From contig QOQW01000036.1 in the NCBI GenBank assembly GCA_003327425.1, positions 1 through 38,526 on the forward strand: 38,526 bases of DNA, given 5' to 3'. The DNA is from Candidatus Ozemibacter sibiricus (GTDB taxonomy: Bacteria; Muiribacteriota; Ozemobacteria; Ozemobacterales; Ozemobacteraceae). Of this stretch, positions 3,528 to 36,285 are shown in pieces; position 1 is the first letter of the stretch, and each line of letters starts with the position of its first letter. Under the pieces are notes generated by a model, which saw only the letters and a list, made by a program, of their open reading frames with translations, did not search any database and had not been told where the DNA came from. The position numbers and the translations under genes were made by a program.

Positions 3528-3866
3528 CTAAACGTCGAGGCACGTCCGAAGATTGTCATCCACCCGCTTCAGGTCATCCGCATCCAACGTGCCCAGTTTC
3601 TTTTCGACAAGGGTTTTCTTGATGGAAAGCAGAATCCCGGTGACGACGGAAGGATACAGCAAACCGGCTTCTTTCCATTTCAGGAGTTTGATATCCCCGA
3701 AAATCCTTCGAATGGTATTGCTGGTAATGGCGGCGACAACCACCCCTTCCCGCTTGCTATTGAACTGGTGCCCGCTCAAGACGACCACTGGCCGTTTCTT
3801 CGTGGCGCTTCCGTCGGTGAAGATGATCCGTGCCAGAACGATGTCGCCCTTTTTACAGTCCGTCAT
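3528..3866 (-). CDS. MazF/PemK-family mRNA interferase toxin
   Basis: A 112-residue protein beginning MTDCKKGDIVLARIIFTDGS and continuing KKRPVVVLSG, the hallmark start of the PemK/MazF SH3-like fold (GDIV...FTDGS...KRPVVVLS). These toxins cut mRNA at short sequence motifs. The next block, VVVAAITSN, is also typical. The start at 3866 is chosen because homology begins there and because it overlaps the upstream antitoxin gene by 14 nt, consistent with coupled translation. An in-frame extension further upstream only reads through the antitoxin in another frame. The C-terminal half (LLSIKKTLVEKKLGTLD and beyond) fits family members that have an extra helical end. Confidence 0.85.
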   Translation of the reverse strand: MTDCKKGDIVLARIIFTDGSATKKRPVVVLSGHQFNSKREGVVVAAITSNTIRRIFGDIKLLKWKEAGLLYPSVVTGILLSIKKTLVEKKLGTLDADDLKRVDDNLRTCLDV

Positions 3867-4101
3867 AGGCCCCGTCACGGTCGTTATCCCAGAGTTCTCG
3901 CAGGCATTCCGTGGGTTTGGTGGTAAGAAGGCGAAGATCCGCTTCTTCTTCGTCTCTTTCCATTTGCGCCTTGATGCTTCCCAGAATGAACTCCCGGAGG
4001 GTTTGCCCTCGAATCGCCGCATAGGCCTTGATTTTCCGATGTTCATCGGTGGAGATGTCGATGGTCAAGCGCTCCCGCTTCTTGGTGGCTGTCATATCCA
4101 T
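3853..4101 (-). CDS. RHH-type antitoxin partner of the MazF-like toxin
   Basis: An 82-residue protein. ERLTIDISTDEHRKIKAYA followed by GQTLREFILGSI has the ribbon-helix-helix pattern of CopG/ParD-like DNA-binding antitoxins; the acidic C-terminal tail (ECLRELWDNDRDGAYDGL) would contact the toxin. The ATG at 4101 is preferred over that at 4095 because AGGA lies at a suitable distance upstream. It overlaps the toxin gene by 14 nt. Likely autoregulatory, as for most such antitoxins. Confidence 0.78.
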   Translation of the reverse strand: MDMTATKKRERLTIDISTDEHRKIKAYAAIRGQTLREFILGSIKAQMERDEEEADLRLLTTKPTECLRELWDNDRDGAYDGL

Positions 4102-4123
4102 GTGGTCCTTTCCACTTTTGTGA

Positions 4124-4129
4124 ATTGTA
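4124..4129 (-). promoter_or_regulatory. Possible -10 box (TACAAT) for the RHH/MazF module
   Basis: Minus-strand TACAAT lies 23-28 bp upstream of the antitoxin start in an AT-rich patch. No good -35 match is visible at the expected distance. Confidence 0.3.
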
Positions 4130-4535
4130 CCTTTTTTCCCGCCGGTTCGCCACCCAACCATTCCGGGGAGAGCCAAGGGAAAATCCTGCTCTCTCCTGCG
4201 AAGAGGTCCAGTGGGGAGCTTCTCTTGTCACAAACCTATCGTAGGGCTCAGCACCATGGATGGTTTGTCATTTCTGTTCGCATGTTTCCGTTCGAGTCGC
4301 ACCACCAGGGGTGAATCTGTCCCGGGCCGCGCCTCGTCGGGCCATCGAAGGCAGGTGGGAGACCGCTGGGGGGGGCCGCGTGCGAAAAGAGAGAAGGCGT
4401 CGATCGTCCGATCACAACGCCCCCCCGGCGAGCGGGGCGAGGCAAGGGCGAGGGATTGGCTGCTAACTACAGGCCGCGAGGCGGGAGGGAGGAGCAATGT
4501 GGGCGAGATATCCTTCAGGCGAGCACGCCATCAGC
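4130..4535. other. Gene-free stretch at the right edge of the toxin-antitoxin island
   Basis: No recognisable gene, RNA or repeat. Base composition shifts from the lower GC of the toxin-antitoxin genes back to the high GC of the chromosome within this interval. Confidence 0.4.
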
Positions 4536-4952
4536 CTAGCGCATGCCGGTGTGCATGGTCTGGTTGAGCATGGTCGTCGTGAGGGAACAGACAGTGCGCA
4601 TGTGGGCCCGAGCGGTTTCCAGATCCCGGCCGGTGACCAGCGCGAAGTGGGCTTTCTTGGTCAGCTCGCGGACGGTGCGGGCCTCGCGACTCTGAGAATG
4701 GAGGATCGCCCACCGGGAGTTCTCCAGGAGGGTGATCAGGTCTCTGGCTTCGGTCACGAGCTGGTCGATCCGGTTCTGGGCGTCGGGGCGGTTCAGGTTG
4801 CGCTCGAGCGCCTCGGCGGCTCGCATGATCCGCTCCTGGGTCCGCAAGATACGGGGAATCTGCTCGCTCGTTTGAGCCTGAGCGATTCCGGCCGAATACG
4901 CCAAAAGCGCTGTGGCCAGGATGGCCAAGGCGATCATTCTTGGGGTTTTCAT
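4536..4952 (-). CDS. Small secreted all-helical protein, family not recognised
   Basis: A 138-residue protein starting with a clear Sec signal peptide (MKTPRMIALAILATALLAYS, cleavage likely after AQA near residue 27). The mature part is predicted helical and charged (ERIMRAAEALERNLNR, IDQLVTEARDLITLLE, ARTVRELTKKAHFALV), suggesting a small helical bundle. There is no catalytic motif and only one Cys, near the C-terminus. A strong ribosome-binding site (GAGGAG) precedes the ATG. It stands alone with gene-free DNA on both sides. No function can be assigned. Confidence 0.7.
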   Translation of the reverse strand: MKTPRMIALAILATALLAYSAGIAQAQTSEQIPRILRTQERIMRAAEALERNLNRPDAQNRIDQLVTEARDLITLLENSRWAILHSQSREARTVRELTKKAHFALVTGRDLETARAHMRTVCSLTTTMLNQTMHTGMR

Positions 4953-5142
4953 GGCAAACTCCTCGGAATAGGGTGAATTCGTTATCTGTCATGACCGATA
5001 ATCCGGGGCGTTTGTGACATCTTCCCGGTCGAGGGCGGTCGTTCGACAGGGTCGGCTATCTCAGGTTCACCCGGTGTCCATGGTCAGGAACGGACGAGTT
5101 TCGGCCGATAGGTAGGGAAGATCCCCACGTCAAAGGTGAGGC

Positions 5143-6120
5143 ATGCCCGATCCTGCAACGGTTCCCCCCACGCCCTCGCCCGCGCCGCCTCGGCCCGCCG
5201 CGCCGCGGCCGGCGGGCCTGCCGCCGGTGGCGTCGGCGCCGAAGAACACGACCGCCGCGGCCCCGGCGTCGGGCTCGTCGGCCGGCAACCCCGAAGGGGC
5301 CGAGGGGCAACCCTCCCGGTTGTATCGGGCGCTCAGCACGGTGATGTACCTGATGTTGCTGGGCATCTTCGGGGCCACCCTGGTGGCGGCCCTGTTCACC
5401 CTCGATTTTCTCGATATCCTGCAATTCCGCTATCGCATTCCCGAAGCCCTGCGACAACGGTGGCCATTGTCCTCGTATTACTCGTTCGTGGCCCTTCACC
5501 AACTGCCCGATGAAGAGCGCTTCAAAGAACTGATGCGCCGGCGGCAGCAGGAATTCGACGAACTGATCGCCCGCGGCCATGCCGACATCGCCCGGCGCAA
5601 CCGCGAACTCGAAGCAGCCTACCAGAACCTCGCCAAAGCCCAGGAGGAGGCCTATCAGCGACGGCAGCGCGAACTCGATGCCGTGCAGGAGGAACTGCTC
5701 AAGCAGAAGAAGCAGATCGAAGATCTGCGCCAGGACCTCGAAGCCCGCAAGGCCGGCGTCGACATCCTGGCGCGTCAGGTGGCCTCCGAAGCGGCCAGCC
5801 TCGAATCGAGCCTGATCCGGTTCATGGAAGAGGAGAACCGGCTCCGCCCCGTGCAGGAGATCGCTGCCACCATGAACCCCCAGGCCCTGGCGGCGATTCT
5901 CGATGAAGTGCCTGACAACAAGCTGATCTACGACATCTTGAAAGGGGTCGCCCCCGAAGTGTCGGCCGCGGTGCTCGGATTCATGGATCCGGAAAAGGCC
6001 GGCAAGATCCTGAAGATCGCGAAACAACCGCCTCAGTTGCCGCCGCCTGGCCCGTCACGATCATATATCCCGCCCAGCTTGAATGACCTCATCGCATCCT
6101 CCGCCGCCAATCTGCGGTAA
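5143..6120 (+). CDS. Membrane-anchored coiled-coil protein with MotE/MgtE-N-like C-terminus
   Basis: 325 residues in four parts. There is a Pro/Ala-rich cytoplasmic N-terminus (1-60), one membrane helix (about 68-92, VMYLMLLGIFGATLVAALF), a long Glu/Arg/Gln-rich coiled coil (about 125-240), and a C-terminal helical repeat with MNPQALAAILDEVPDNKL and MDPEKAGKILKIAK. The last part matches the pattern of the MgtE intracellular N domain as found in MotE, a flagellar motor chaperone. No flagellar or Mg2+ transporter genes are nearby, so a motility role is only a possibility. The ATG has an AAGGTGAGG ribosome-binding site. The gene is flanked by gene-free DNA and appears monocistronic. Confidence 0.65.
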   Translation: MPDPATVPPTPSPAPPRPAAPRPAGLPPVASAPKNTTAAAPASGSSAGNPEGAEGQPSRLYRALSTVMYLMLLGIFGATLVAALFTLDFLDILQFRYRIPEALRQRWPLSSYYSFVALHQLPDEERFKELMRRRQQEFDELIARGHADIARRNRELEAAYQNLAKAQEEAYQRRQRELDAVQEELLKQKKQIEDLRQDLEARKAGVDILARQVASEAASLESSLIRFMEEENRLRPVQEIAATMNPQALAAILDEVPDNKLIYDILKGVAPEVSAAVLGFMDPEKAGKILKIAKQPPQLPPPGPSRSYIPPSLNDLIASSAANLR

Positions 6121-6566
6121 CCAGAGACCCTCGTCGACCGGGGCAACCGCCCCGGTGGCCGAACCGGTCGGCGAACGCCACCCTTCGGCCCGAGGGCGCG
6201 ATGGCCGATGCATATTGAAGAGACCATTCGTGTCGGGCCATCCCGACAGAGGAGGGAACATGCTTCCTGTCGCTGAAAGTTCCGTGCCGCTGCCGCTCGG
6301 AAGACCGTCTGCCCATCGCGCCCTGTTTGCTCGCGGCCTTCCCCCGTTCAAACGGTGGGTTGGTCCGATCTTCCCCCGTCTGAGCGCAACCTTCTGACGA
6401 AATCGAAGAGTCTGCCATTCGTATGGAGGAATTCGCAGCTCGGTGATGCCCACTGCCATCGGTGCCAGGCCTGGAAGAGAATCTCTGGCATATCGGATTA
6501 GCAGAGAAGATGTGGCGTTCGCGGCCCCCCGACCAGGGCGATGGATAGGGTTGGTTTGACGCATCC
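6121..6566. other. Gene-free stretch between the MotE-like and rhodanese genes
   Basis: No credible gene on either strand. One perfect hairpin is visible, TGTCGGG (6231-6237) / CCCGACA (6242-6248) with a 4-nt loop, too far from the upstream stop codon to be an obvious terminator. Confidence 0.4.
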
Positions 6567-6971
6567 ATGGAATCATCGCGCTGGCTCTGGATCGTTCTCA
6601 TCTTGCTGGGCATCGTGCTCTGGCGACGGGGGTCAGGCTATGGCGGTCCCCAGGTGACCGTCCAGGAATTGAAGGCCCTTCTCGAGCGGCCGTCGGCCGA
6701 AGCGGCTGCCGCGGTGCTGATCGACGTGCGCGAACCCGAGGAGTTCGCGGCCGGCCACGTGCCGGGGGCGCGCAACATCCCTTTATCAGAGGTCGCGCGG
6801 CGTTCAGCGGAGCTGCCGGCGGGGGCGACCGTCTTCGTCATCTGCCAGGTCGGCGGACGTTCGGCGGTGGCCTGTCAGATGCTGGCCGGGCGACTTCCCG
6901 GCGCGCGCGTGGTCAACGTCGAAGGCGGCACCTCGGCCTGGCAGGCGGCCGGATTTCCCCTCGAGCGCTGA
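6567..6971 (+). CDS. Membrane-anchored rhodanese-domain sulfurtransferase
   Basis: 134 residues. An N-terminal membrane helix (residues 6-19, WLWIVLILLGIVLW) is followed by a single rhodanese domain: LIDVREPEEFAAGHVPGARN, then the active-site loop CQVGGRS with the catalytic Cys93, and GGTSAWQAAGFPLER at the end. Rhodaneses carry sulfane sulfur as a persulfide on this Cys. The intact CxxGxRS loop suggests a working enzyme, but the physiological acceptor is unknown. The stop codon directly abuts the stop of the convergent acetyltransferase gene. Confidence 0.85.
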   Translation: MESSRWLWIVLILLGIVLWRRGSGYGGPQVTVQELKALLERPSAEAAAAVLIDVREPEEFAAGHVPGARNIPLSEVARRSAELPAGATVFVICQVGGRSAVACQMLAGRLPGARVVNVEGGTSAWQAAGFPLER

Positions 6972-7442
6972 TCAGGCTCTCGCTGGCTGGGCCAGCGACT
7001 TCTCCATCCGGTGGTGGGGAATGACCCCGAACAGCGTGGGGGCCGGTCCGCGGATGACGTAGCCCGCCCGCTGGTAGAAGCCGACCACCCCCTCGCGGGC
7101 GTTCAATACCAGGCGTTCCAGGCCCCATCGAACCGCTTCCGCCTCCAGGGCATCGAGGATGGCCCGACCGACGCTCCGCCCGCGCGCCCGAGGATCGACG
7201 GCCATGTACCGGATCTGGCCCGTGGTGGCGTCGAGGCGATGGAGGCGGCCGGTGCCCCAGACCTGACCGGCGGCGTCGACCGCTACCACCAGGAAGGAGG
7301 CTTCTTCGTCGGCATCGAGGTCGTCGCGTTCGCTGCCCGGCGGCTGCTGCCACCGCTCGCGCAAAATCCTCCAGCGCAGATGGAAGGCGGCCTCGCGCTC
7401 GCTCGGCGTGCGGGGAGGGCGAATCTCGAGCTGGTCAGCCAT
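6972..7442 (-). CDS. GNAT-family N-acetyltransferase
   Basis: 156 residues. The protein shows the GNAT order: an N-terminal strand-helix (EREAAFHLRWRILRERW), VWGTGRLHRLDATTGQIRYMAV, then the acetyl-CoA pyrophosphate-binding segment RARGRSVGRAILDALEAEA, and VGFYQRAGYVIRGPAP near the end. The layout is close to ElaA-like small-molecule acetyltransferases. The substrate cannot be told. The gene is convergent with the rhodanese gene without a gap and lies 51 bp from the photolyase-related gene upstream on the same strand. Confidence 0.8.
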   Translation of the reverse strand: MADQLEIRPPRTPSEREAAFHLRWRILRERWQQPPGSERDDLDADEEASFLVVAVDAAGQVWGTGRLHRLDATTGQIRYMAVDPRARGRSVGRAILDALEAEAVRWGLERLVLNAREGVVGFYQRAGYVIRGPAPTLFGVIPHHRMEKSLAQPARA

Positions 7443-7493
7443 GACGGACTTCCTGAGAGATGAGGTGGGGCCGGCCCCGATCCGAACGGGAGT

Positions 7494-9191
7494 TCATGCC
7501 TTTTCTTCGAGGGCTTGGCCGGTGCGGTCGCGCCACTCGGCTACCAGCGCGGCGTGCCGGGCGATCTGGTCGGGCGGTCGGGCCCGCGCCTGGCGGGCCA
7601 TCATGGCCAGGCGCGGCTGCCGGTCGAAGAAGTCCTGGTGGGTGGCGATGAACTGCCAGAACAGGGCATCCCACAGGTCTTCCCAGGGGCCGCCCGGAAA
7701 GTCGCCCAGGCGGCGCAGGTAGGCAGAGCCGGAGATGTAGGGCTTGGTGGCGAACAGCCCGCCATCGGCGAACTGGCTCATGCCGTAGACGTTGGGCACC
7801 ATGACCCAGTCGTAGGCATCGACGAACAGCTCCATGAACCATCGGTAGACGTGGTCAGGATGGAATCCGGCCAGCAGCATGGCATTGCCGACCACCATCA
7901 GCCGTTCGATGTGATGACACCACCCGAGCCGGCCGATCCGCTCGATCACGATATCCAGCGGGGTCAGGCCGGTCGTGCCCTCGTAGAACGATGACGGCAG
8001 CGGCCGGGAATGACCGAAGAAATTGGCGGTGCGCTCGGCGACCCCGGCGCGCTCGTAGACTCCGCGGATGAATTCCCGCCAGCCGATCACCTGTCGCAGG
8101 AAGCCCTCGAGCGAAGCGAGGGGAATGGGGCCTCGCCCGGCCGTTCCTGATGGGGCGACGCCCGCGGCTTCTGGGCCCGCAGCGGTCGGGCCGGCCTGCC
8201 GTCGCCTCCGGGCCGTGGCTGGCGGCTGGCGTGGGTGGGCCGCGCCGCCTCGGGGCCGACGAGAAGCGGCCTGGGGAAGAGACGCGCCAAGCGACGGAGG
8301 AATCACGCCGCGGTCGGCGGCGGCGGCCAGGGTGGCCTCGACCACCTCGGCCGGCGTCAGCAGGCCGATATTCAACAGCGGCGACAGCACCGAATGGCAC
8401 AACACCGGTTCGGTCGCACACATCGCGTCTTCGTACGGGCCGAACTCGGCCAGACGATGGTCGAGGAAATCGATCAGCCAGCGGCGCGCCTCGCGGCGGG
8501 TGACGGGCAGCCAGAAGGTGCCGGGGTCGCCCGGATGGCCGGGGAACTCGGCACGGACGGCGCGCGCGAGGGCGGGCAGCCACTCCAGATGGCGAACGTC
8601 CGGGAGGGGCGGCGGCACGGCCCCGGCCGGCCAGCGCCGGCGGTTCTCGGGATCGAAGCTCCAGCGTCCGCCGACCGGTTTGTCCCTTTCGAGCAGGATG
8701 CCCAGGCGCCGGCGTTGCATGATGTAGAAGGTGGCCATGCGCCAGGTGTCATGACTGCCGAAATAGTCGTCGAGAACGCGGCGCGGCGTCAGAAACAGCG
8801 GCGTGGGGCAGAGCCGCACTTCCCCGCCCAGCCGCTGCACGCTTTCGTGCAGGCGCTTCTCGAGCAGGAAGTCGACCGGTTCGGCGACGAAGAACGCCCG
8901 GTAGCCTTGGCGGCCGAGATCGGCGATCACCTCGCGCAGCGTTCGTCCCGGGCGGTATTCGATCGGTTCGACCTGGTGGCCGGCCTGCCTCAGCTCGTCG
9001 GCATAGGCGCGCATCGTCGCCCGATGGAGCAGTAGTTTGTGCGTATGCCGCCGCAGCGGATGGTGCGGATCGCCGAAGAACAAAGAATCTTCGACCAACG
9101 CGATCGGTCGCCCGGCCGCCACCGCCGGATGCCGCTCGAACAATTGGTGCGGGAAGATCAACGTGATTTCCGAACCCGACATGTCAGGCAT
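7494..9191 (-). CDS. Cryptochrome/photolyase-related FAD protein (DPRP, (6-4)-photolyase-like), apparently without Fe-S cluster
   Basis: 565 residues. The N-terminal photolyase-related domain is clear (LIFPHQLFERHP, VEDSLFFGD, KLLLHRATMRAY, MATFYIMQRRRLGIL), followed by the FAD-binding helical part (LEGFLRQVIGWREFIRGVY, CHHIERLMVVGNAMLLAG, DAYDWVMVPNVYGMSQFADG, KPYISGSAYLRRLGD). Bacterial (6-4) photolyases such as PhrB carry a 4Fe-4S cluster near the C-terminus. Here the cysteine-rich segment after KPYISGSAYLRRL reads GDFPGGPWEDLWDALFW with no Cys, so the cluster is probably absent, as in a known clade of these proteins. A Pro/Ala/Arg-rich insert of about 55 residues (298-356) precedes the LEGFLRQ motif. 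Either ATG (9191 or 9182) could be the start; neither has a good ribosome-binding site. Role: light-dependent DNA repair or light sensing. Confidence 0.85.
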   Translation of the reverse strand: MPDMSGSEITLIFPHQLFERHPAVAAGRPIALVEDSLFFGDPHHPLRRHTHKLLLHRATMRAYADELRQAGHQVEPIEYRPGRTLREVIADLGRQGYRAFFVAEPVDFLLEKRLHESVQRLGGEVRLCPTPLFLTPRRVLDDYFGSHDTWRMATFYIMQRRRLGILLERDKPVGGRWSFDPENRRRWPAGAVPPPLPDVRHLEWLPALARAVRAEFPGHPGDPGTFWLPVTRREARRWLIDFLDHRLAEFGPYEDAMCATEPVLCHSVLSPLLNIGLLTPAEVVEATLAAAADRGVIPPSLGASLPQAASRRPRGGAAHPRQPPATARRRRQAGPTAAGPEAAGVAPSGTAGRGPIPLASLEGFLRQVIGWREFIRGVYERAGVAERTANFFGHSRPLPSSFYEGTTGLTPLDIVIERIGRLGWCHHIERLMVVGNAMLLAGFHPDHVYRWFMELFVDAYDWVMVPNVYGMSQFADGGLFATKPYISGSAYLRRLGDFPGGPWEDLWDALFWQFIATHQDFFDRQPRLAMMARQARARPPDQIARHAALVAEWRDRTGQALEEKA

Positions 9192-13926: not shown

Positions 13927-15252
13927 TCAGCGATCTTCGAAGGGATTGGTGGCGGCGCCTTCGCCGACCGTGACCTTGGTCGGTTCGACCTGGGGCTGGC
14001 CAGCGTCTTCGGTGGGGGCGGCGGGCGCCTCTTCGGTGGCCGGCAGCGTCGATGTGCCGCGATCGGCCAGGGCGTTGCGCGCCTCGGCGGTGTCGCCCAG
14101 CAGATCGAGCAGTTCGGCGTCGCTCAGCTTGCCGTGCGTCTGTTCATTCAGAATGCGCATGACCAGGGCGGTTTCCCCGGGGTTGCGCTTGACGTACTCG
14201 CGCAGGAAGTCTTTCAACTCGTGCAGGGCCTTGTTGCTGCCGACGAAGGCCTCGAATACCGCCTGGCGCCCGCCCTTGCCTTCCTGCGCGATCCGGAACA
14301 TGATCGCGGCGACGACGCCTTCGACCGACAGCAGATCCTGGCCGGTCACTTTGGGGTCGGTGGCGGAGATCCCGTTATAACCGCCCTGCTTCTCGAAGTC
14401 GATGGTGGCGATGCTGCGGAAGACAGCATCGGCTTCGTCTTTCGATTCGAGCATCTCGTTGAAGATGGCCCAGCCTTCGAGGTAGGCGACCCGCGGGTAG
14501 GTCTTCTCGTTGGTGTGGTGCATGTTGTCTTTGCCGTAGAGCGGGGCCCCGTCCTTGATGGTGGTGCGGATCGCCTCCCAGGTGATGCCCAGCGGGTTGG
14601 CGCGGTCGAGGGTGTGGCAGTATTCGTGCAGGAAGGTCGACCGGGCATGCGCCTCGCTGCCTTTGTAGTTGTACTGCAGCGAACTCATCTGGATCGAGCC
14701 GTAGGACATCGGCCAGAAGTCTTTTTCGACGGTCGGCACGTTGTCGAACCCGGTGGTATCGGTCAGCAGCACGCGCACCGCATCCTTGCGGTAGGCATAG
14801 GGCTGCCGCTCTTTGATGGCCGGCGACGAGGCGGCCCGGAAGGCGGCGAGCAGGCCGCGCTGCCCGTCGGTCAATTCGGCTTCGCTCTTGACGCCCATGG
14901 CGGCCAGCAATTCGGCCTCGGTGGTGACCTTCACGCGCTTCACCTTGTAGGCGATGCGGGGGTTCTGGACCGACCGGACCCACTTGGTGCCGGTGCCGGG
15001 GAAGAACCGCATTTCGGCCTGGCTCCAGGCCATCTGGGCGTAGTTGAGGATCTGCTTGCCGAAATTCTTGGTTTTGTCCCACCAGGAGCCGCCTTCCGAC
15101 GGTTTCTCCTCGTTGACCTCCTGGATGGCCTGGTAGTAGAACTCGAATCCGCCATCGGCCGCCCGCAGCCTGGCTGGCGTGGCCAGCAGACTGACGGTGA
15201 GCAACAGGAGCAGGGCAAGGGTCGGTTCGATCCGGCGATTCGACAACAACAT
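13927..15252 (-). CDS. Secreted putative zinc metallopeptidase (gluzincin-like), paralogue A
   Basis: 441 residues with a signal peptide (LALLLLLTVSLLATPARLRA). A zinc-peptidase motif HEYCH occurs at 209-213 within RSTFLHEYCHTLDRA. DNMHHTNEKTY follows at about 242, and YLEGWAIFNEML (Glu259), 46 residues after the second His, would supply the third zinc ligand of a gluzincin. The C-terminal part has MRILNEQTHGKLSDAELLDLL and a Pro/Glu/Thr-rich tail. The protein shares this motif order and several blocks with the product of 32767-34161, so the two are paralogues. I do not recognise a named family. Export to the periplasm or surface is likely; the substrate is unknown. Confidence 0.72.
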   Translation of the reverse strand: MLLSNRRIEPTLALLLLLTVSLLATPARLRAADGGFEFYYQAIQEVNEEKPSEGGSWWDKTKNFGKQILNYAQMAWSQAEMRFFPGTGTKWVRSVQNPRIAYKVKRVKVTTEAELLAAMGVKSEAELTDGQRGLLAAFRAASSPAIKERQPYAYRKDAVRVLLTDTTGFDNVPTVEKDFWPMSYGSIQMSSLQYNYKGSEAHARSTFLHEYCHTLDRANPLGITWEAIRTTIKDGAPLYGKDNMHHTNEKTYPRVAYLEGWAIFNEMLESKDEADAVFRSIATIDFEKQGGYNGISATDPKVTGQDLLSVEGVVAAIMFRIAQEGKGGRQAVFEAFVGSNKALHELKDFLREYVKRNPGETALVMRILNEQTHGKLSDAELLDLLGDTAEARNALADRGTSTLPATEEAPAAPTEDAGQPQVEPTKVTVGEGAATNPFEDR

Positions 15253-15551: not shown

Positions 15552-18500
15552 TCACCCCTCTTCGGGAATCGCCAGGAACAAGCGCAAGATCTGGCTTTTC
15601 CCTTTGACCGAGGTCTCCTCGAGAGGGGTGAACCGCCACTGGTGGCTGGCGGCCGTTCGGCTGGCCGCTTCGTGCAGGCGGTCGTCGCAGACCAGGCCGC
15701 CGCCAGGTCGGCTGGCCGCGAGATCGCACAAACGGGCGGCGAGGTTGACGGTGTCGCCGAGCACCGTGTATTCGAGCCGGATGTCGTCTGCCCCCATGAT
15801 GCCGGCCAGCACCGGTCCATTCGTCATTCCCATCGCCAGCGGACAAGGCAGGCGATCTCGGTGCCGTCGGGCGACCTGCCACAGGTTCCTGGCCGCCGTC
15901 AGGGCCGCCTCGACCGCGTCGGGCGGGAAGAGCGCCAGGATCTTCTCGCCGATGAACTTGTCGATCTCGCCGTGGTGGGCCAGGATCGCTCGCGAGGCCT
16001 CCTCGAGGAAGCGGTTCAGGTCATGGATGACCGCCTCTGGCGGGCGGCGGGCCAGGACCTCCTTGAAGCCGGCGAGGCTGGCGAAGAGCACGATCGCTTC
16101 GCGTCGTTCTCCCGAACGGGCGATGGCGGCTGATTGCTGATCGCGAGCCACCTTGCGAACGCCAGCCGAGACGAATCGCCCGAGCAGACGACCTTCTCGG
16201 CCCTCCTTGGTCATGTGGTTGAATGCCCGCGCCAGTTCGCCGAATTCACCCGGGTAGCATTCGCTGATGGCGACCTGGAAATCGCCATCCATGACCCGTC
16301 GAATGGCCAGGGTCAGTTCCGAGACCGGCTGCAGGACATGGCGCGCCACGTGGCGCGCCAGGAGAAGAACGAAGAAGATCAACCCGAGGAACGTGCCGAG
16401 CTGCACCATCCGGTAGCGTTCCCACGCCTGCAGCATGCGGCCGAGCGGCACTTCCATCAACACCGCGAGGTTGCCCAGGCGAGCGAGGGGCGCGGCCAGG
16501 TGCAGCGTCCGGCCTTCCCCTGCTCCTTCATCCTGCCAGGCAGGGGATTGGCGTTGGGCCGCCGCCAGGGCCATGCCTGCCAGAAAGGGGGGCAGCCGAT
16601 GCAGGTTGCGCGGGGATTCTGCCGGCAGCAGCTCGGTGAAGGTGCCCACCTTCCGGTACGGAGCCACCAGACTGCAATACGGTTCGCCATCGGCGGCGAA
16701 GAGGACGGGCAGCGTCCATCCCTGGTGCTGGATCCGGCCATGCGGAGCCCACATCGAGAGGACGATCGGTTCGCGGTCTCGGGTGACCCAGGTGGCCAGG
16801 TACAAGCCGCGGGGGATGCCGCCCGCGAAATGGAATCCCCAGACCCCGAATTCCGAACGTCGGCCGCTGGCCATCCAGTGGCCGATGCGATGCGGCGAGG
16901 CAAAGCTCTGCAGGAAATGTTCCGGGCCGAACACCAGCCCTGCCAGGTCCAGGAGTTCTTCGACCTGGCTGCCGACGAGCAGATGATCGCGTTCGTTCAA
17001 CCGGAGCGGCCGCCAGGATTCGGGAGGGATGCCGGACAGACCGGCCAGTATCGAGGATCCTAGATAGGCCAGCAGACGACGATACCCCGTCAGATTCTCC
17101 TTCCCTTCTGTGGACGGGTAGCTGACCACGCGGCCGTTGGTGGCCATCACCAGACCGCTCTGGACCAAGATCCCCCGTGAGGCCAGGTCGCGAGCCCACG
17201 AGCGCCAGGCCGTGGGGATCGGTTCGGCGAGGGAAGCGGCGTCAGTGGCCGATACGGCATCGATCACGGGAGGGAAGCTGTCGGCCAGGATGCGATGCGT
17301 CCAGGCCAGATCGAGGTCCAGGGACCGATCGATCTCGCGGGCCAGCCGGAGAGCTTCCTCGCGCCATTCCCGCGGGATCCGCAGGACTCCCTCGCGGACA
17401 TCATACTGCAGGATCTGCCAGCAGATCGCCAGCATCGGCAGCAGGGCGGCCAGGAACGTTCCTCCCAGTTGGACGCGGAGAAACCTGCCGCGGGGCACGG
17501 AACCGCCGAGGAACCACCACAGCCCGCCCGTCAGCCAGGCCACCAGGAATCCCAAGCCCGCCAGGGCTTCGCCGGAGAGGACGGCGGCTGGGGGCCACGG
17601 CACGGCCAGGATGAACCCATGGCGGTCCCAGGTCCGTTCCCACACGATCCAGTCATTGCCTCTGATCGGGCCGAATCCTGGCTGGACCCGGTGGGGATGG
17701 AAGCCGGCGACGTTCTTGAACCCGGGGCTTGCCCACCAACTCGGCTCCGGGCTGCCTGGCGGCGGTTTGATGGCGATCTCGAGTCCACCGGTGGCGATGG
17801 CGGCCGCAGCCCGCTCGACGAACCGACGGGCGAGCGCGGGATGATCGGCATACCAGGCCACGATCCATCCCTGGAACCCTTGGTGGAAGGAGTGCAGAAG
17901 CTGGTAGCGATCTCCCAAGGCCCTGGGATGGCGAACGGTGGCGGCGAGAACGGCTTCGATCGCCTGGTCGGATTGGGAGGGGGGAGCGCTCTGGTCTTGA
18001 GCGAACACCGGAATGAGGTGCAGCGCGATGGTTCCTGTCCCCACCTTCAGGGGCGTGAAGCCCCGCAACAGGTCGGTGGCCAGGTACACGAAGCGGGAAT
18101 ACTGCGATTGCCATCGCGGAAAGTCATTCTGGAGCCATGTCGCCAAGGCTGGCGATTGAATGACCACCCCGGTCAGGTGGTTGCCCAGTTGGCTTTTGAC
18201 CATTCCCAGCAGGCTGGTCACCAGGGGGGCCGGCAGGGGCAGGTCCGGTCCGCCCTGGGCCGCTTTTCGTGCCTGCGCTGGCGTGACGAGGACCTCGGGC
18301 GGTCCAGGATCCAGCCAGGCTCCAGCTGTCCAGCCGCGCCGGGCGGACGGCTGAGCGGACGAACCCAGCAGAGAGGCGGCGGGCAGGCTCAGGCCGGTGA
18401 TCGCCTGGTTTTGGGCATCGAGCACCTCGAGCGTGAGGCCATGCGTCAGCCTCGCCACCCCCAGAACGACGGGCCACTCAAGGATTCTCCCCAGGAAGAC

Positions 18501-21500
18501 CCGCCGCCAGGCCGGTCCCGACGGTCCCCTGGCCGATGTTTCCACCCAGAGTTCCTGAGAGGGAAAATCAATGGCCAGGGTCAGGCAGATGTCGGGAGAC
18601 GGGCCATCGACGCCGACCCACAGGCCGAAACGCGGGGCCGGACGCTCCTCGATCGGGGCGAGAAACGGCAGACGAAGCGCCCCGCCCTCTGGCAGCGGGG
18701 CCAGCAGGCGTACCGTCTCGGAGACCGGGCGCCCCTCGTGGTCGCCCTTGAGTTCAAGGCGGAAGGAATCATCGTTGGTGGCATGCAGCGCATGAGGCGG
18801 CGGCTGATCCCTGCCGCCAAGGATCTGGACCTGCTCGGGGCCGATGGGTGCGAATGGTTGTCCGGGATGCGAACGAGCGCGGGGGCGGCCCAGGCGCAAG
18901 ACCACTTCTGGGGGGGCCGTGAATTCCACCCATTGCCAGCCCAGCTCGGGAAAGCCCTTCTGCAGCGGAGAAAGATGCTCGGCCAAGCGGGCGGCGAACG
19001 GCGTTGATGATGGGCCTGCTTGCGCTCGCTCGACGGCCTGCCGCAGATCGAGGGCCAGCTGCGCCCCCGGGGTCAGGCGATGTTCCAGGTCGGTCCAGGC
19101 ATCCTTGAGCCGCTGGAGGGCCTGGGCGGCCTGCTGGCGCTGGCCGAGGTCGAGGTTGGCCTTCCATTCCCCTCCCAACCAGATGACCGGCAGGCAGAAC
19201 AGGGCCAGCCTCCACCAGGTGGCTCGTGGGCGGGCCGACCCCGGCCTCGGGCCCGGCGGGCCATGATCTGCGGCCGGCCACCGGGCGGTCGGTCTCTCAT
19301 CGGGCCGTACGGCCAGGTCGGGTGCCAGACCAGCGCCGGTGGCCGAAGAGCCTGAGAGCAGGATTTCCTCCAATTCCCAGGCGCCCGTGGTTCCTTCGAC
19401 CGGGCAGACCGCCCGGGCGGTCCGCCAGGCGGCGCGGGTGGCCTCGTCCACGATGATGCGCGTATGACGGCCGTGCCGAGAGAGGCTTTCCAGCGCGCCG
19501 GCCCGCGTGACCGTCTCGCCCAGGACGGTGTAGTCGAGACGCACATCTTCGGCCCCCACGATGCCGCTGACGACCCGCCCGGTCGCCAGCCCGATGCCGA
19601 TGGCGTAGGGGAAGGCGCCCTGCGCCAGGCGCTCCTGCACCAGGCCCGCCTGGGCGGCCATCATCTCCTGGGCGGCCGCCGTGGCCCGCTCGGCGCCAGC
19701 GCCGGCCGCCGCGGTGGTGGGGAAGACGGCGACGATGGCATCGCCGATGAAACGATCGACGATTCCCCCATGGTGCTGGATGATGGCCACCATACGTTTC
19801 AGGTGGGCATTGAGCAGGGCGAAGATGGCCTCCGGTGGATGGGTCTCACAGAGGGTGGTGAAACCACGGATATCCGAGGCCAGCACAGTGACGTGTTCGG
19901 CGCAGCCGTCGGTCAGCCGGCGCAGGTCGCCGCCCGCCACCGCCTCGAGGACCTGCGGAGGGACGAAGCGGGTCAGGCGTCGGCGCTCGCGCAGCGTCTC
20001 GGTCATGCGGTCGAGGGCCTGGGTGGCGAAGCCCAGCTCGTCATTCCGCCCTTCATGGATGGTCGCGTCCAGATCGCCGGCGCTGATGCGGCACAGCGCC
20101 CTGGTCATGCGATGCAGCGGATCGGCCAGGTGATCGGCCAGCTCCCAGGCGATGCCCACGAGATACAGCAGCATCATTGCCAGAAGCGCCAGAAACCAGG
20201 TGCGATGGCGGTCGAGACGGGCATGGATGTCGGTCAAGGGCGCCGCCGCCACCAAGGTGTATCCAGGCAGGTGATGAGCCGGTCGACTGGCGCCGAGCAT
20301 CGGTTGCCCGGCCATCATGAACTCCTGGACGACCGGCGAGCCGCGACCGAGACGACCCAACCGTCCAACCCAGGGATTGGGATGACTGCTCCAGATGAGA
20401 CGGTGGTCCGCGAACTGACAGCTTCCCAGCAAAAGGGTGGTCGAGGGTAAGCGGGGGCGGATCGCCCGACTGGCCAACAGGTGGTGCAGTTCTTTTTTCT
20501 GGTCCCAGACCACCACCACCAGGAAGCGGCTCTGCCCTCGATACCGCACGATGTCGTAAAAGGCCACCAGTTGCTGGGTTCCGATGGCCATGAAATTGGC
20601 CTGGCGGGCTTTGATGCCTTTGAGGTTGCCCATGGGAGTGGTCAACCCCAGACTGCCTCCTCCGGGGCGCGTGGTTCGGGTCTGGGGCGGAGGCTTCTCA
20701 GGAGGGGCGTCAGCTTTCGGCAGACGGCCTTTCAATCGTTCTCCGAACTGGTCCAGGATCAGGTTGCGTTGAGACTCTCGAATGGGCAGGTCCCACGCCG
20801 CGATGGTGAAATCATGGTGACCGAACACCACGAGGGCCTTGAGGGCGAGGCCCGCCTGTCGGAAGGCTTGCCGAATCCTGGATTCGATCGGGGTGAAAGA
20901 TCGTCGGGCATACTGCACCTCGTGCAGCGGTCCACCGAGATCCAGCCGTGCCAGGATCCGGGCGGCCTTCTTCTCTTGGAACCGTGTCAAGCGTGAGCCC
21001 AGGCCATCCATGAAATCCAACTGGGCTTCCAGTTCCTGGAGCCGCTCCTCACGCAGACTGCGGAACGTATGGTCGAGCCGCTGGAATCCATTGCCCGCTA
21101 CCATGACGAGAGGGATGGTCGCCAACCCGATGAACCAACCAAGGAGGGTGGCATGGATGCCGGCGCGCCAGGCGGGCCGCTGGCGACGGCGAGGCCAGAT
21201 CAAAACCCAACCCAGAGGAAGGGCCAGACCGACCGCCACTGCCCCCGACCACCACCACCAGCTCCGGTTGCGCTCGGCGAGAACGGCGACCATCCGGGTC
21301 TGGGGGTCGAGGGGGAAGAGGCGGCCGCGCCATCCATCGCGGCGGGCGATGTTGGCCAGATGCTCTACCGGAAATCGCCACCGTCCGAGGTGGTCTGGTT
21401 GGCGGGTGGGCGGTGAGATGCGGATCTGCGCTATGAGATGAGTCAGGAGAGGATGGGCTTCCGAGGGGTGAAAATCGGGGTGGGCCAGGCTCGTCGAGGC

Positions 21501-22332
21501 GGTCTCTCCTGGTGCCGCCGGCAACGACAAGAAGGCCGGCCGAATGGTCGGATGTGACCAGTATTTGAGGAGCAGCCGCTGTGCCTGACGGACGGGGTCG
21601 GCCGGGCGGGGCACGAACAGGATCAGGCAGGCGGCCGGCCGCCCCTGGCGGGTGATCAGGCTCCAAGCCATATAGCCGAATCGGCCCCCATGAATGACGG
21701 GAATGGCCTGGCCGGCGTACCGAAGGTCGAACATCTCGCCTTGGAAGAAGGGGCCGAACAGGTGGCGAAGGCGGTTCTCCCAGCGAAGGCTGCTCAGTTC
21801 GGACGGTTGATTCGGATCTTGACCGGCCAGGCTGGTCATGATCCGGCCGATCAGGAAGCGATGGCTGGCGGCCAGGCCGGGGCCTTCGAGCAAACGGACC
21901 TGGGCGAGGCCGCCGGGGCCATGCTGGCAGACCCCGACCCATAGTCGCTCTGGTGGGGGAGGGCCGCCACGTGGCGGCGCGGTCGGGCGATCGGGGGGGG
22001 CTGTCGTCGAGGTGGTCGAGGCGTTTCTCCCACCATCTCCGCCAGGCTTGCAGGCGGTGTTCGACCCAGGTCTCGAACAGGGTATGGCGTTGGACGAACG
22101 GGACCAGCGCGGCTGAGGCCTGCTGGAAATGGTGGTCGCGATCTTCCTCCCAGCGTTCCTGGAAGGCTGCTGCCTGCCAGAGGAGCAGACTTCCGGTAAG
22201 AAGCGCCAGGACCAGGGCCAGCCAGCCCGGGCCCTGGTGGCAGCCGGCCTCGCCTGGGGCTGGTGGCCCCGGGCGGGGGCCCGTGGGGGAGGCGATGCTG
22301 ACCGATTCAGGGGGTTGCAGCGACCAGGACAT
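15552..22332 (-). CDS. Giant two-unit transmembrane class III adenylate cyclase with complementary C1/C2-type catalytic domains (frameshifted near the N-terminus)
   Basis: About 2,260 residues if one base is removed from the G8 run at 21993-22000. Before it, the ATG at 22332 encodes a 100-residue segment with a membrane helix (LALVLALLTGSLLLW). After it, one frame runs to the end; residue numbers here count from the TTG at 21893. Unit 1 has helices 211-233, 245-267 and 567-584, an extracytoplasmic sensor between the last two, HAMP (588-640) and cyclase 1 (665-830). Unit 2 repeats this with helices 893-910, 1437-1464, 1474-1495 and 1830-1848, HAMP (1849-1895) and cyclase 2 (1930-2110). Cyclase 1 keeps metal ligands Asp674 and Asp718 but has Thr796 and Ala800 for the transition-state Asn and Arg. 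Cyclase 2 has Ser1939 and Glu1983 for the Asp pair but keeps Lys1979, Thr2043, Asn2050 and Arg2054. One complete ATP-cyclizing site should form between them. Confidence 0.88.
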
Positions 22333-22680: not shown

Positions 22681-23940
22681 TTACCGGAAGACCGAGCCCA
22701 GTTTCTTGAGCCCGTTGCCCAGCAGCGTTCCTGCGCTGGCCAGCAGATTGGCGGCGGCGCTGCCGACCTGGCCCGCCGCCCGCAGGACGGTGCCGCCCAG
22801 CTTGCCCAGGCCCCCCAGCACCTGGTTGCCGGCCCCGCCCTCGGCCGCCGTGCGATCGCCCCACAGGGCCAGCCGATCGCCCAGATAGCTCAGGCCGCGG
22901 CCGCCCAGCGCGATGGCGGCGGCCGGGATGGCGCCGATTCCCTTGACCAGACCGCCGCCCATCGAGAAGAAGTCCATGTGCTTCCAGCCGGTGTAGACGT
23001 CATTGATGGCGCCGGCCACCGAGTCTTCGAGGGCGGTGGAGAATGTGCCGGAATAGATGGGGACCGCCGTCACCGCGGCGTTGGCCCCGGCGATGTCGAC
23101 CATCAGGTTGGAATAGCCGACGAACTGGCCCAGCCGGCCGGTGCACGGTTGTCGCCAGATCGACTGGAACGTCGCGACCGGCATGGTATACGTGCCCGAC
23201 GGCTGGTTGATCGCCCAGTAGGAATCGCGCAGCTCGAGACTGACGATATTCCCGTTCGGATCGGCGGTATAGCCGCTGACGCAGACCCAGTGCGGGGTGC
23301 CGCCGCAATCGACCAGCACGATGACCGGCAACCTGGCATCGAGCCTAGCCTTCAGCTCGCGCAAACTGGCGTTCTGGCGCAGGCGCGCCTGCACCCCTTG
23401 CGAATTCAGGTATTCGACGATGGTCGGCGGGGCGGTGAAGATGCCCCCGGGATTGGTGGCCTGGTAGACCTCCTGGGCGATGACATGGGCGCCGAAGTAC
23501 TGCAGCACGCTGGTCATCGCGTACTGGCCGCAGTAGTTGTTCCCGTCGATCGGCTCGGGCTTCTTGAACCCGGGAAGGGACACGGTGGTGGTGGCGCCGG
23601 CCCCCGCGACCGAGCTGGCGGCCGGCCCGGCCGCAGCGGCGGCCTCCTGGGGCGGCCGTTCGACCTTGATTTCGACCTTCAGGTTCTGCAGGCCTTTCAA
23701 GGCTTCCTGCCACGCGGCCTTGGCTTTTTGCACTTCATCGCGCAGGGCCGGCAGCGCCCGGTCGGTCGGATCGCTGGCCATCGTCTCGGCCAGTTTGCGG
23801 TACAAGGCCTCATAGCGCGCCTTGAGGGCCTGGGCCGCCTCGCTGGCTGGGCTGGCCGCGTGGGCGGTGGGCAGAAGGCCTGCCGTCAACAGCAGCAGGC
23901 CGAAGACCACGGTCAGCCAGATCGTTCGCTTCCGGTTCAT
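22681..23940 (-). CDS. Secreted C39-like (papain-fold) cysteine peptidase with hydrophobic Gly/Ala-rich C-terminus
   Basis: 419 residues. Signal peptide 1-28 (ending AHA). A charged helical segment (35-95) and an Ala/Pro linker lead into a C39_2-like domain. NNYCGQYAMTSVLQYFG carries the candidate catalytic Cys137, GTPHWVCVSGY His217, and LRDSYW Asp239. The C-terminal 130 residues are rich in Gly, Ala and Leu (AIPAAAIALGGRGL, NLLASAGTLLGNGLKKL), resembling membrane-active or pore-forming segments. The next gene on the strand is a tiny membrane protein 14 bp away, which might be an accessory or protective partner. A strong sigma-70 promoter lies 32 bp upstream, and the ribosome-binding site GGAG precedes the ATG. 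Target unknown. Confidence 0.78.
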   Translation of the reverse strand: MNRKRTIWLTVVFGLLLLTAGLLPTAHAASPASEAAQALKARYEALYRKLAETMASDPTDRALPALRDEVQKAKAAWQEALKGLQNLKVEIKVERPPQEAAAAAGPAASSVAGAGATTTVSLPGFKKPEPIDGNNYCGQYAMTSVLQYFGAHVIAQEVYQATNPGGIFTAPPTIVEYLNSQGVQARLRQNASLRELKARLDARLPVIVLVDCGGTPHWVCVSGYTADPNGNIVSLELRDSYWAINQPSGTYTMPVATFQSIWRQPCTGRLGQFVGYSNLMVDIAGANAAVTAVPIYSGTFSTALEDSVAGAINDVYTGWKHMDFFSMGGGLVKGIGAIPAAAIALGGRGLSYLGDRLALWGDRTAAEGGAGNQVLGGLGKLGGTVLRAAGQVGSAAANLLASAGTLLGNGLKKLGSVFR

Positions 23941-35269: not shown

Positions 35270-36285
35270 TTCCTCCCGAGCGAATCCTGCCATTCCCGCA
35301 CCAGATTCCAGGCGGGCCAACGCTCCAGAGCCAGTTGCCAGGCCGTGCTGGCCACGGTGGTCGCCCCCTGGGCCGCCAGCAGAACTCCCAGGTTGGCGGC
35401 CCGGAAGCCATCGGTGAAGGAGGGGGGGGCGGCGCGCAGCGCCTCGACCTGCTTGGCCAGCACCGGCGGCGGGCTTTCCAGGCTTTGCAGCGCCTCGATC
35501 GACATCTGCACGAGCTGGCGGGCCATCTCTGGATGCAACGCGATGGGCGGCTGCTCGGCCGCTGGCTTCACCTCGTAGGGCTCGGTGCCGCCGAGGGCGG
35601 CCAGTAGGGCGGTGCCGGCCTGACGGGACGGCGTCGCCTGCTGGGCCAGCACCGCGGCCTGCCACTCAGCGAACCGCTGCTGCACGGCCGGATCGGTGAA
35701 GGCGACGGCCGGTGCCCACAGGTGCAGTCGTCTTCCCGCGACCGGCCAGAGAGGCAGGGGAAGGAACGCCCGGGGCACGGTCGCCGCCAATTGGGCCTCG
35801 ATCGACAGTGGGCTGCAGAACCCGATGGGGAGCGGCTTGGCCAGGTTGGCGAGTTCGGCCAGCAAAACGGCCTTGGCGCTGGCGGCATACGCCCCCGGCT
35901 GTTCGATGTGGGCCTGCAGAGCCTGGCGGTCGGGGCGGCCGGTCGCCACCACCTCGAACCAGCCATCGAACGAAGCGGGGGCCTCGGCGACGAATTCGGC
36001 CGCCCAGCTCTGGCCGGCCGGCAGCCGGTCGAGCGTGCGACGCGGCGTGCGACCGGTGAACCCGGCCGGCCAGACCACTTCGACCGCCAGATCGGCGATC
36101 GGGCCGATGGGGGCTTCCACCCTGACGGTGACCCGCAGTTCACGGGTGGCAGGGTTCCAGGCGGTGACCAGCGCCGAGGTCTTGTACCAGTCAGGAAAGC
36201 GGATCGCCGGGGGCATGGCGGCCGCCGGGCTTCCGGCGCCCATCCACCAGGCCAACCCCAGAATGGCCAGCAGCATTCGTGTCAT
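35266..36285 (-). CDS. Secreted protein of unknown function
   Basis: 339 residues with a signal peptide (MTRMLLAILGLAWWMGAGSP, cleavage near AAA-MPP). The N-terminal mature part looks like an immunoglobulin-like beta domain (TRELRVTVRVEAPIGPIADL, AVEVVWPAG, SWAAEFVAEAP, GWFEVVATG). The rest is helical and Ala/Gln-rich, with FAEWQAAVLAQQATPSR and MARQLVQMSIEALQSLE. An AGGAGG precedes the ATG at 36285 by 9 nt; a longer upstream frame is Pro/Arg-rich and not credible. Coupled to the small membrane protein downstream. I do not recognise the family. Confidence 0.65.
   Translation of the reverse strand: MTRMLLAILGLAWWMGAGSPAAAMPPAIRFPDWYKTSALVTAWNPATRELRVTVRVEAPIGPIADLAVEVVWPAGFTGRTPRRTLDRLPAGQSWAAEFVAEAPASFDGWFEVVATGRPDRQALQAHIEQPGAYAASAKAVLLAELANLAKPLPIGFCSPLSIEAQLAATVPRAFLPLPLWPVAGRRLHLWAPAVAFTDPAVQQRFAEWQAAVLAQQATPSRQAGTALLAALGGTEPYEVKPAAEQPPIALHPEMARQLVQMSIEALQSLESPPPVLAKQVEALRAAPPSFTDGFRAANLGVLLAAQGATTVASTAWQLALERWPAWNLVREWQDSLGRK

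Follow-up and report, generated by a model that had tools for sequence, protein, structure and literature searches.

Predicted receptor adenylate cyclases of Candidatus Ozemibacter sibiricus appear to divide one catalytic site between two complementary halves

Can a bacterium build a membrane adenylate cyclase on the animal plan, in which two complementary domains, C1 and C2, share one active site within a single chain? The question is raised by a minus-strand gene on contig QOQW01000036.1 of Candidatus Ozemibacter sibiricus, the whole of which (38,526 nucleotides) was analyzed and is called the window here. An open reading frame (ORF) of 2113 amino acids (aa) at 15552-21893 was present in the window as drawn, and Pfam recognized two Guanylate_cyc and two HAMP domains in its product, the two Guanylate_cyc domains (PF00211) scoring 93.4 bits over the whole protein against a cut-off of 21.9. 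The residues on which the original prediction of such an enzyme was built (Asp674, Asp718, Thr796, Ala800, Ser1939, Lys1979, Glu1983, Thr2043, Asn2050 and Arg2054) were all numbered correctly, and the VKGK motif lies at 2096. In class III cyclases the metal-binding Asp residues of one domain and the Lys/Thr and Asn/Arg residues of the other make up one site. The full class III set (two metal Asp, Lys, Thr/Asp, Asn and Arg) was found in C1 and C2 jointly and in neither alone. Judged from its sequence, the gene very probably encodes a two-half membrane class III (IIIb-like) adenylate cyclase with one composite ATP site and input from two sensors.

The predicted enzyme would join two homologous receptor halves in a single polypeptide. 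Each half would comprise four transmembrane (TM) segments and two extracytoplasmic regions along with its own HAMP and cyclase domains. C1 would supply the two metal-binding Asp, and C2 the Lys/Thr for adenine together with the Asn/Arg for the transition state; paired at a heterodimer interface, the two domains would form one working ATP site, leaving the second, mirror site of the dimer dead for want of both residue sets. Two unlike sensor halves would feed this one site and may gate it jointly. Given that the halves differ, the enzyme could read two unlike sensors at once.

The window gene belongs to a family. Pfam recognized 53 cyclase domains in the 5.68-Mb genome, and an iterated profile run on the genome regions returned 54 class III cyclase domains. 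Domains were classed by six catalytic positions: C1-type domains keep both metal Asp and have the Asn/Arg pair broken, and C2-type domains have lost the first Asp and keep Lys, Thr, Asn and Arg. The 54 domains were thus 17 C1-type, 17 C2-type, 18 intact, one degenerate (L038) and one odd small domain (L032, 5287-5874). Each C1 had a C2 partner, giving 17 complementary pairs. Seven of these units are single chains (the window gene, L013, L014, L015, two in L020, and L021), and ten are adjoining same-strand genes with overlapping frames (L016-L019 and L022-L027), the C2 gene preceding the C1 gene in L018, L019 and L026. The small domain L032 is a stand-alone cyclase-like ORF of 196 aa that adjoins an intact cyclase, and in another genus a cyclase match (G007:C14:69054-69482) lies in an ORF of the same length. 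The cNMP_binding family had 14 matches in the genome.

Both Asp were present in 17/17 C1 domains, where the Asn and Arg positions held twelve and six different residues, respectively (entropy 3.45 and 1.94 bits). Conversely, Lys, Thr, Asn and Arg were each present in all 17 C2 domains, the first Asp was kept in none of them (G, S, T, H, E or Q instead) and the second position was D or E. The intact domains had both Asp, Lys, Asn and Arg in 18/18 cases. That every pair was complementary while every intact domain was whole is more than chance would give, and the mirror-image constraint in C1 and C2 indicates that the loss in each domain is what its partner supplies. A further likeness claimed in the original prediction, the mammalian V-T replacement in C1 and FAS replacement in C2, holds for the window protein and is not general among its paralogues: the C1 Asn position is Thr in only one of the 17, and in C2 Gly (nine) outnumbers Ser (four) where the first Asp would stand. 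The letter-for-letter likeness is therefore coincidence, and we rejected it as a sign of kinship with mammalian cyclases; the functional pattern is the conserved part.

Dead cyclase domains do exist in these genomes. Residues from both sets are lost in L038 and in L195 (G009), and L038 also has Cache and HAMP domains and HEAT repeats. That the paired domains likewise lack catalysis and serve as pseudo-cyclases for regulation or ligand binding is nevertheless most improbable: dead domains would be expected to drift at both sets, whereas in the pairs the lost set is exactly the one supplied by the partner and the kept sets vary hardly or not at all across ~55 pairs. L038 (2024-4381) is itself a receptor in which a degenerate cyclase is followed by HEAT repeats, and the degenerate domain of L195, which begins at 4404 and belongs to another genus, is related to it.

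The same division was found beyond this genome, whose named relatives are Candidatus Riflebacteria and Ozemobacteraceae metagenome-assembled genomes (MAGs). Each of the seven sampled genomes of the family, the own genome among them, had pairs, as did G013, which belongs to a different family. The C1/C2 pairs seen in G001, G003, G005, G007, G009, G011, G013 and the named MAGs were all complementary, bringing the total with the own genome to ~56 pairs; L224, where a C2 fragment lying at the edge of the locus gave a false pairing, is counted as fused, and in L225 the second C1, which was misaligned, was read by eye. When the domains of relatives were classed by profile score and not by residue, the same C1/C2 constraint emerged with few exceptions. 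Random residue loss among orthologues, which the original prediction had named as evidence that would speak against it, was absent, the pairs examined in own and related genomes splitting the set alike. Among the best 80 loci of one scan of GTDB genomes, no such pairs outside Riflebacteria appeared; some outside domains (L054, L066 and L067 among them), classed as C1 from a single changed Arg, are unpaired and were left out of the counts. A count of C1 members by profile score across 40 genomes of the phylum was rejected as a census, as intact domains may reach the scores of C1 members.

Other cyclases with adjacent or tandem domains were also seen. In L213 (G016, 3794-8144) adjacent dCache cyclases have lost complementary residues, their six positions reading KDKTNR and DDKSSR; the two domains cluster together, apart from the main family, and the pair apparently represents a second, independent origin. 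L214 and L215 (G017) and L221 (G019) are ADCY10-like: each combines tandem cyclase domains with AAA_16, two of the three have TPR as well, and their catalytic residues are split in C1/C2 fashion. Adjacent cyclase genes in L082, L089, L105 and L114 (Rhodospirillaceae/Reyranella and others) keep the metal and Asn/Arg residues in both domains, the Lys position being Asn or Ser in one domain and Thr in the other.

AlphaFold models of the HAMP-C1 and HAMP-C2 regions of the window protein were of high confidence, with a mean predicted local distance difference test score (pLDDT) of 90.0 and 93.6, respectively, and the predicted single-domain folds of C1 and C2 were intact, with a TM-score of ~0.8 to CyaB. 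The homodimeric bacterial cyclases CyaB (Pseudomonas aeruginosa), CyaC, Cya2 and Rv1625c thus appear, by these models, to have the same fold as the window domains; they differ in carrying a complete set per chain, whereas the set of the window family is divided. The structure nearest to the C1 model was the guanylyl cyclase Cya2, which would suit cyclic GMP (cGMP) or another cyclic nucleotide as the product. We consider this very unlikely, since the residues for base recognition sit in C2, whose nearest structures were adenylyl cyclases, and the adenine-type Lys and Thr were each present in 17/17 C2 domains of the genome and in 34/34 and 33/34, respectively, of those from relatives. The Lys and Thr in C2 point to ATP as the probable substrate, as originally proposed.

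The family was compared with known enzymes, among them mammalian AC1-AC9 (class IIIa pseudoheterodimers), which likewise have two membrane halves, a C1 with both metal Asp, a C2 with Lys/Asn/Arg and one predicted site; checked against the AC5 C1a and AC2 C2a sequences, the division of labor was the same. The C1 profile matched VC1 (1azs_A) and the C1 parts of AC5, AC8 and soluble adenylyl cyclase (sAC), and the C2 profile matched IIC2 (1azs_B) and the C2 parts of the same three. Unlike AC1-AC9, the Riflebacteria family is bacterial, uses Thr and not Asp for adenine, occupies a separate branch of the tree and occurs in a two-gene form too; in place of two six-TM domains, hydropathy and homologues gave four TM segments per half, with large extracytoplasmic regions and HAMP. 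ADCY10, the mammalian sAC, also has C1 and C2 in one chain, and both profiles matched its corresponding domain. The site of sAC is of the Thr type, IIIb. It differs in having no membrane half between C1 and C2, and the window protein departs from the ADCY10-like plan in that its cyclase domains are >1000 aa apart and Pfam gave no AAA or TPR match. Soluble guanylyl cyclase alpha/beta is a true heterodimer of divergent subunits, the C1 profile preferring alpha and the C2 profile beta, but it is a soluble, haem-regulated animal enzyme that makes cGMP.

We then asked where the two halves came from, using a tree of 188 domains from which the six catalytic columns had been removed. The 55 C1 rows formed one clade (94/88), and a wider group (97/76) took in every C1 and C2 row together with three intact domains and two degenerate ones. 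The intact members (L191, L241 and L242) are receptors of 953-987 aa with the four-TM-plus-HAMP plan of one half, and represent the undivided receptor type. Profiles of the sensor regions preceding C1 and C2, with TM4 and HAMP removed, aligned over 540 columns (E 7e-28) and matched the intact receptors with E 7e-13 and 2e-14, respectively. The sensor regions of the two halves being homologous, the whole receptor was duplicated; the proposed duplication with reciprocal loss is thus supported by this homology and by the tree. A homodimer-forming receptor cyclase would have been duplicated, have undergone reciprocal loss and, in part of the family, have been fused, presumably in that order. On the tree, the fused and split forms require four changes over the C1 rows and three over the C2 rows, and the split units L024/L044, nested among fused ones, seem to have come apart later. 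The mammalian C1a and C2a sequences, confirmed from PDB entries, grouped together (100/99) apart from the Riflebacteria C1/C2 family, on long branches that make their exact place coarse. The tree gave no sign that the family and AC1-AC9 descend from a shared C1/C2 protein in which the duplication had already happened. Given that mammalian C1 and C2 branch elsewhere, the bacterial two-half form would be a case of convergence, and the animal-like C1/C2 solution apparently arose separately in a bacterium.

With 17 C1 and 17 C2 domains in one cell and ten units made as separate polypeptides, partners may not be fixed, and C1 of one unit might combine with C2 of another in a combinatorial network, which would modify the composite-site reading without excluding it. 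We regard such exchange as rather unlikely, in that the divergence of C1 follows that of C2 from unit to unit, and the fusion of seven units argues for fixed partners. Pair by pair, distances among C1 domains correlated with those among C2 domains (Mantel r 0.76 with 52 pairs and 0.79 with the 17 own pairs; 0/2000 permutations as high), a result that either fixed partners or the duplication of entire units would give.

Several points weigh against the composite-site reading of the family. A few C1 domains retain Asn or Arg singly, and C2 was a single clade for only 46/56 rows in the careful tree. AC9 was an exception in the profile test, the C2 profile favoring its C1 half. The AlphaFold models are of single HAMP-cyclase regions, the pairing of C1 with C2 being inferred; the pairs in related genomes are a sample and not a full listing, and a few of the 52 pairs in the Mantel set are mispaired. 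Finally, the window copy contains a frame break, described below, and could be broken.

According to a 2022 review, bacterial class III cyclases homodimerize, and the duplication and fusion behind C1/C2 cyclases are placed in an early eukaryote (PMC9552081). We found no earlier description of Riflebacteria or Ozemobacter cyclases in the open-licence literature, and reports may exist elsewhere. Since ADCY10-like AAA/TPR tandem cyclases occur in the same phylum, tandem C1/C2 proteins may not in themselves be a novelty among bacteria; what appears to be new is the membrane-receptor form, in such number and both fused and split. On balance we lean toward an independent bacterial counterpart of the animal-type pseudoheterodimeric membrane cyclase, with many dual-sensor receptors per genome, coexisting undivided, split-pair and fused stages and, possibly, a combinatorial two-input cyclic AMP network. 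As all three forms are extant, the transition from a symmetric two-site to an asymmetric one-site enzyme, why and how it happened, is directly testable. The family is also a source of C1/C2 pairs that are small and can be taken apart for biochemical work, and it hints at receptors able to weigh one signal against another.

The features of the window gene are collected in Table 1. The TTG at 21893, where the 2113-aa ORF opens, is unlikely to be the real start, and coding sense continues upstream of it. An N-terminal membrane anchor (MSWSLQ...) was read from ATG 22332 in a frame different from that of the ORF, and it matched the N-terminus of the paralogue L015 weakly. Because the anchor lies in the other frame and is joined at the run of eight C, the window copy may be a pseudogene or a phase-variable copy, which would concern this copy and not the family. 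We hold this to be possible but unlikely: no stop interrupts the other 2113 codons, C1 and C2 between them hold the complete catalytic set, and assembly indels are common at homopolymer tracts.

Table 1. Features of the receptor-cyclase gene, in window coordinates
Feature	Position	Strand	Remarks
Whole receptor-cyclase gene, M1-HAMP-C1-M2-HAMP-C2	15552..22332	-	drawn from ATG 22332 across the frame break at the C8 tract
TM1 (GWLALVLALLTGSLLLWQAAA)	22165..22227	-	other frame; coordinates approximate
Eight-C run (C8), anchor frame to frame of 2113-aa ORF	21993..22000	-	sequencing/assembly indel or real slippage
TM2, aa 214-232	21198..21254	-	hydropathy
TM3, aa 248-266	21096..21152	-	hydropathy
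TM4, aa 567-585	20139..20195	-	hydropathy
First HAMP, ~aa 584-636	19986..20144	-	PF00672, two stretches; limits approximate, from HAMP-bearing NCBIfam matches
C1 cyclase domain, aa 655-845	19359..19931	-	Asp674 and Asp718 kept; Lys to Arg, Asn to Thr796, Arg to Ala800
TM5, weak, aa 893-910; second half begins	19164..19217	-	under hydropathy threshold; placed by analogy with other halves
TM6, aa 1436-1454	17532..17588	-	hydropathy
TM7, aa 1474-1492	17418..17474	-	hydropathy
TM8, aa 1832-1850	16344..16400	-	hydropathy
Second HAMP, aa 1849-1896	16206..16349	-	Pfam
C2 cyclase domain, aa 1925-2113	15555..16121	-	Asp to Ser1939, Asp to Glu1983; Lys1979, Thr2043, Asn2050 and Arg2054 kept

Three more 8-base runs of C or G occur in the window, at 1422-1429, 4368-4375 and 35422-35429. 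The gene is flanked on the same strand by two others with no evident link to cyclases: one at 22681-23940, for a C39-like peptidase scoring just under the cut-off, and one at 13927-15252, for a zinc-peptidase-like protein with a HEYCH motif and no Pfam match.
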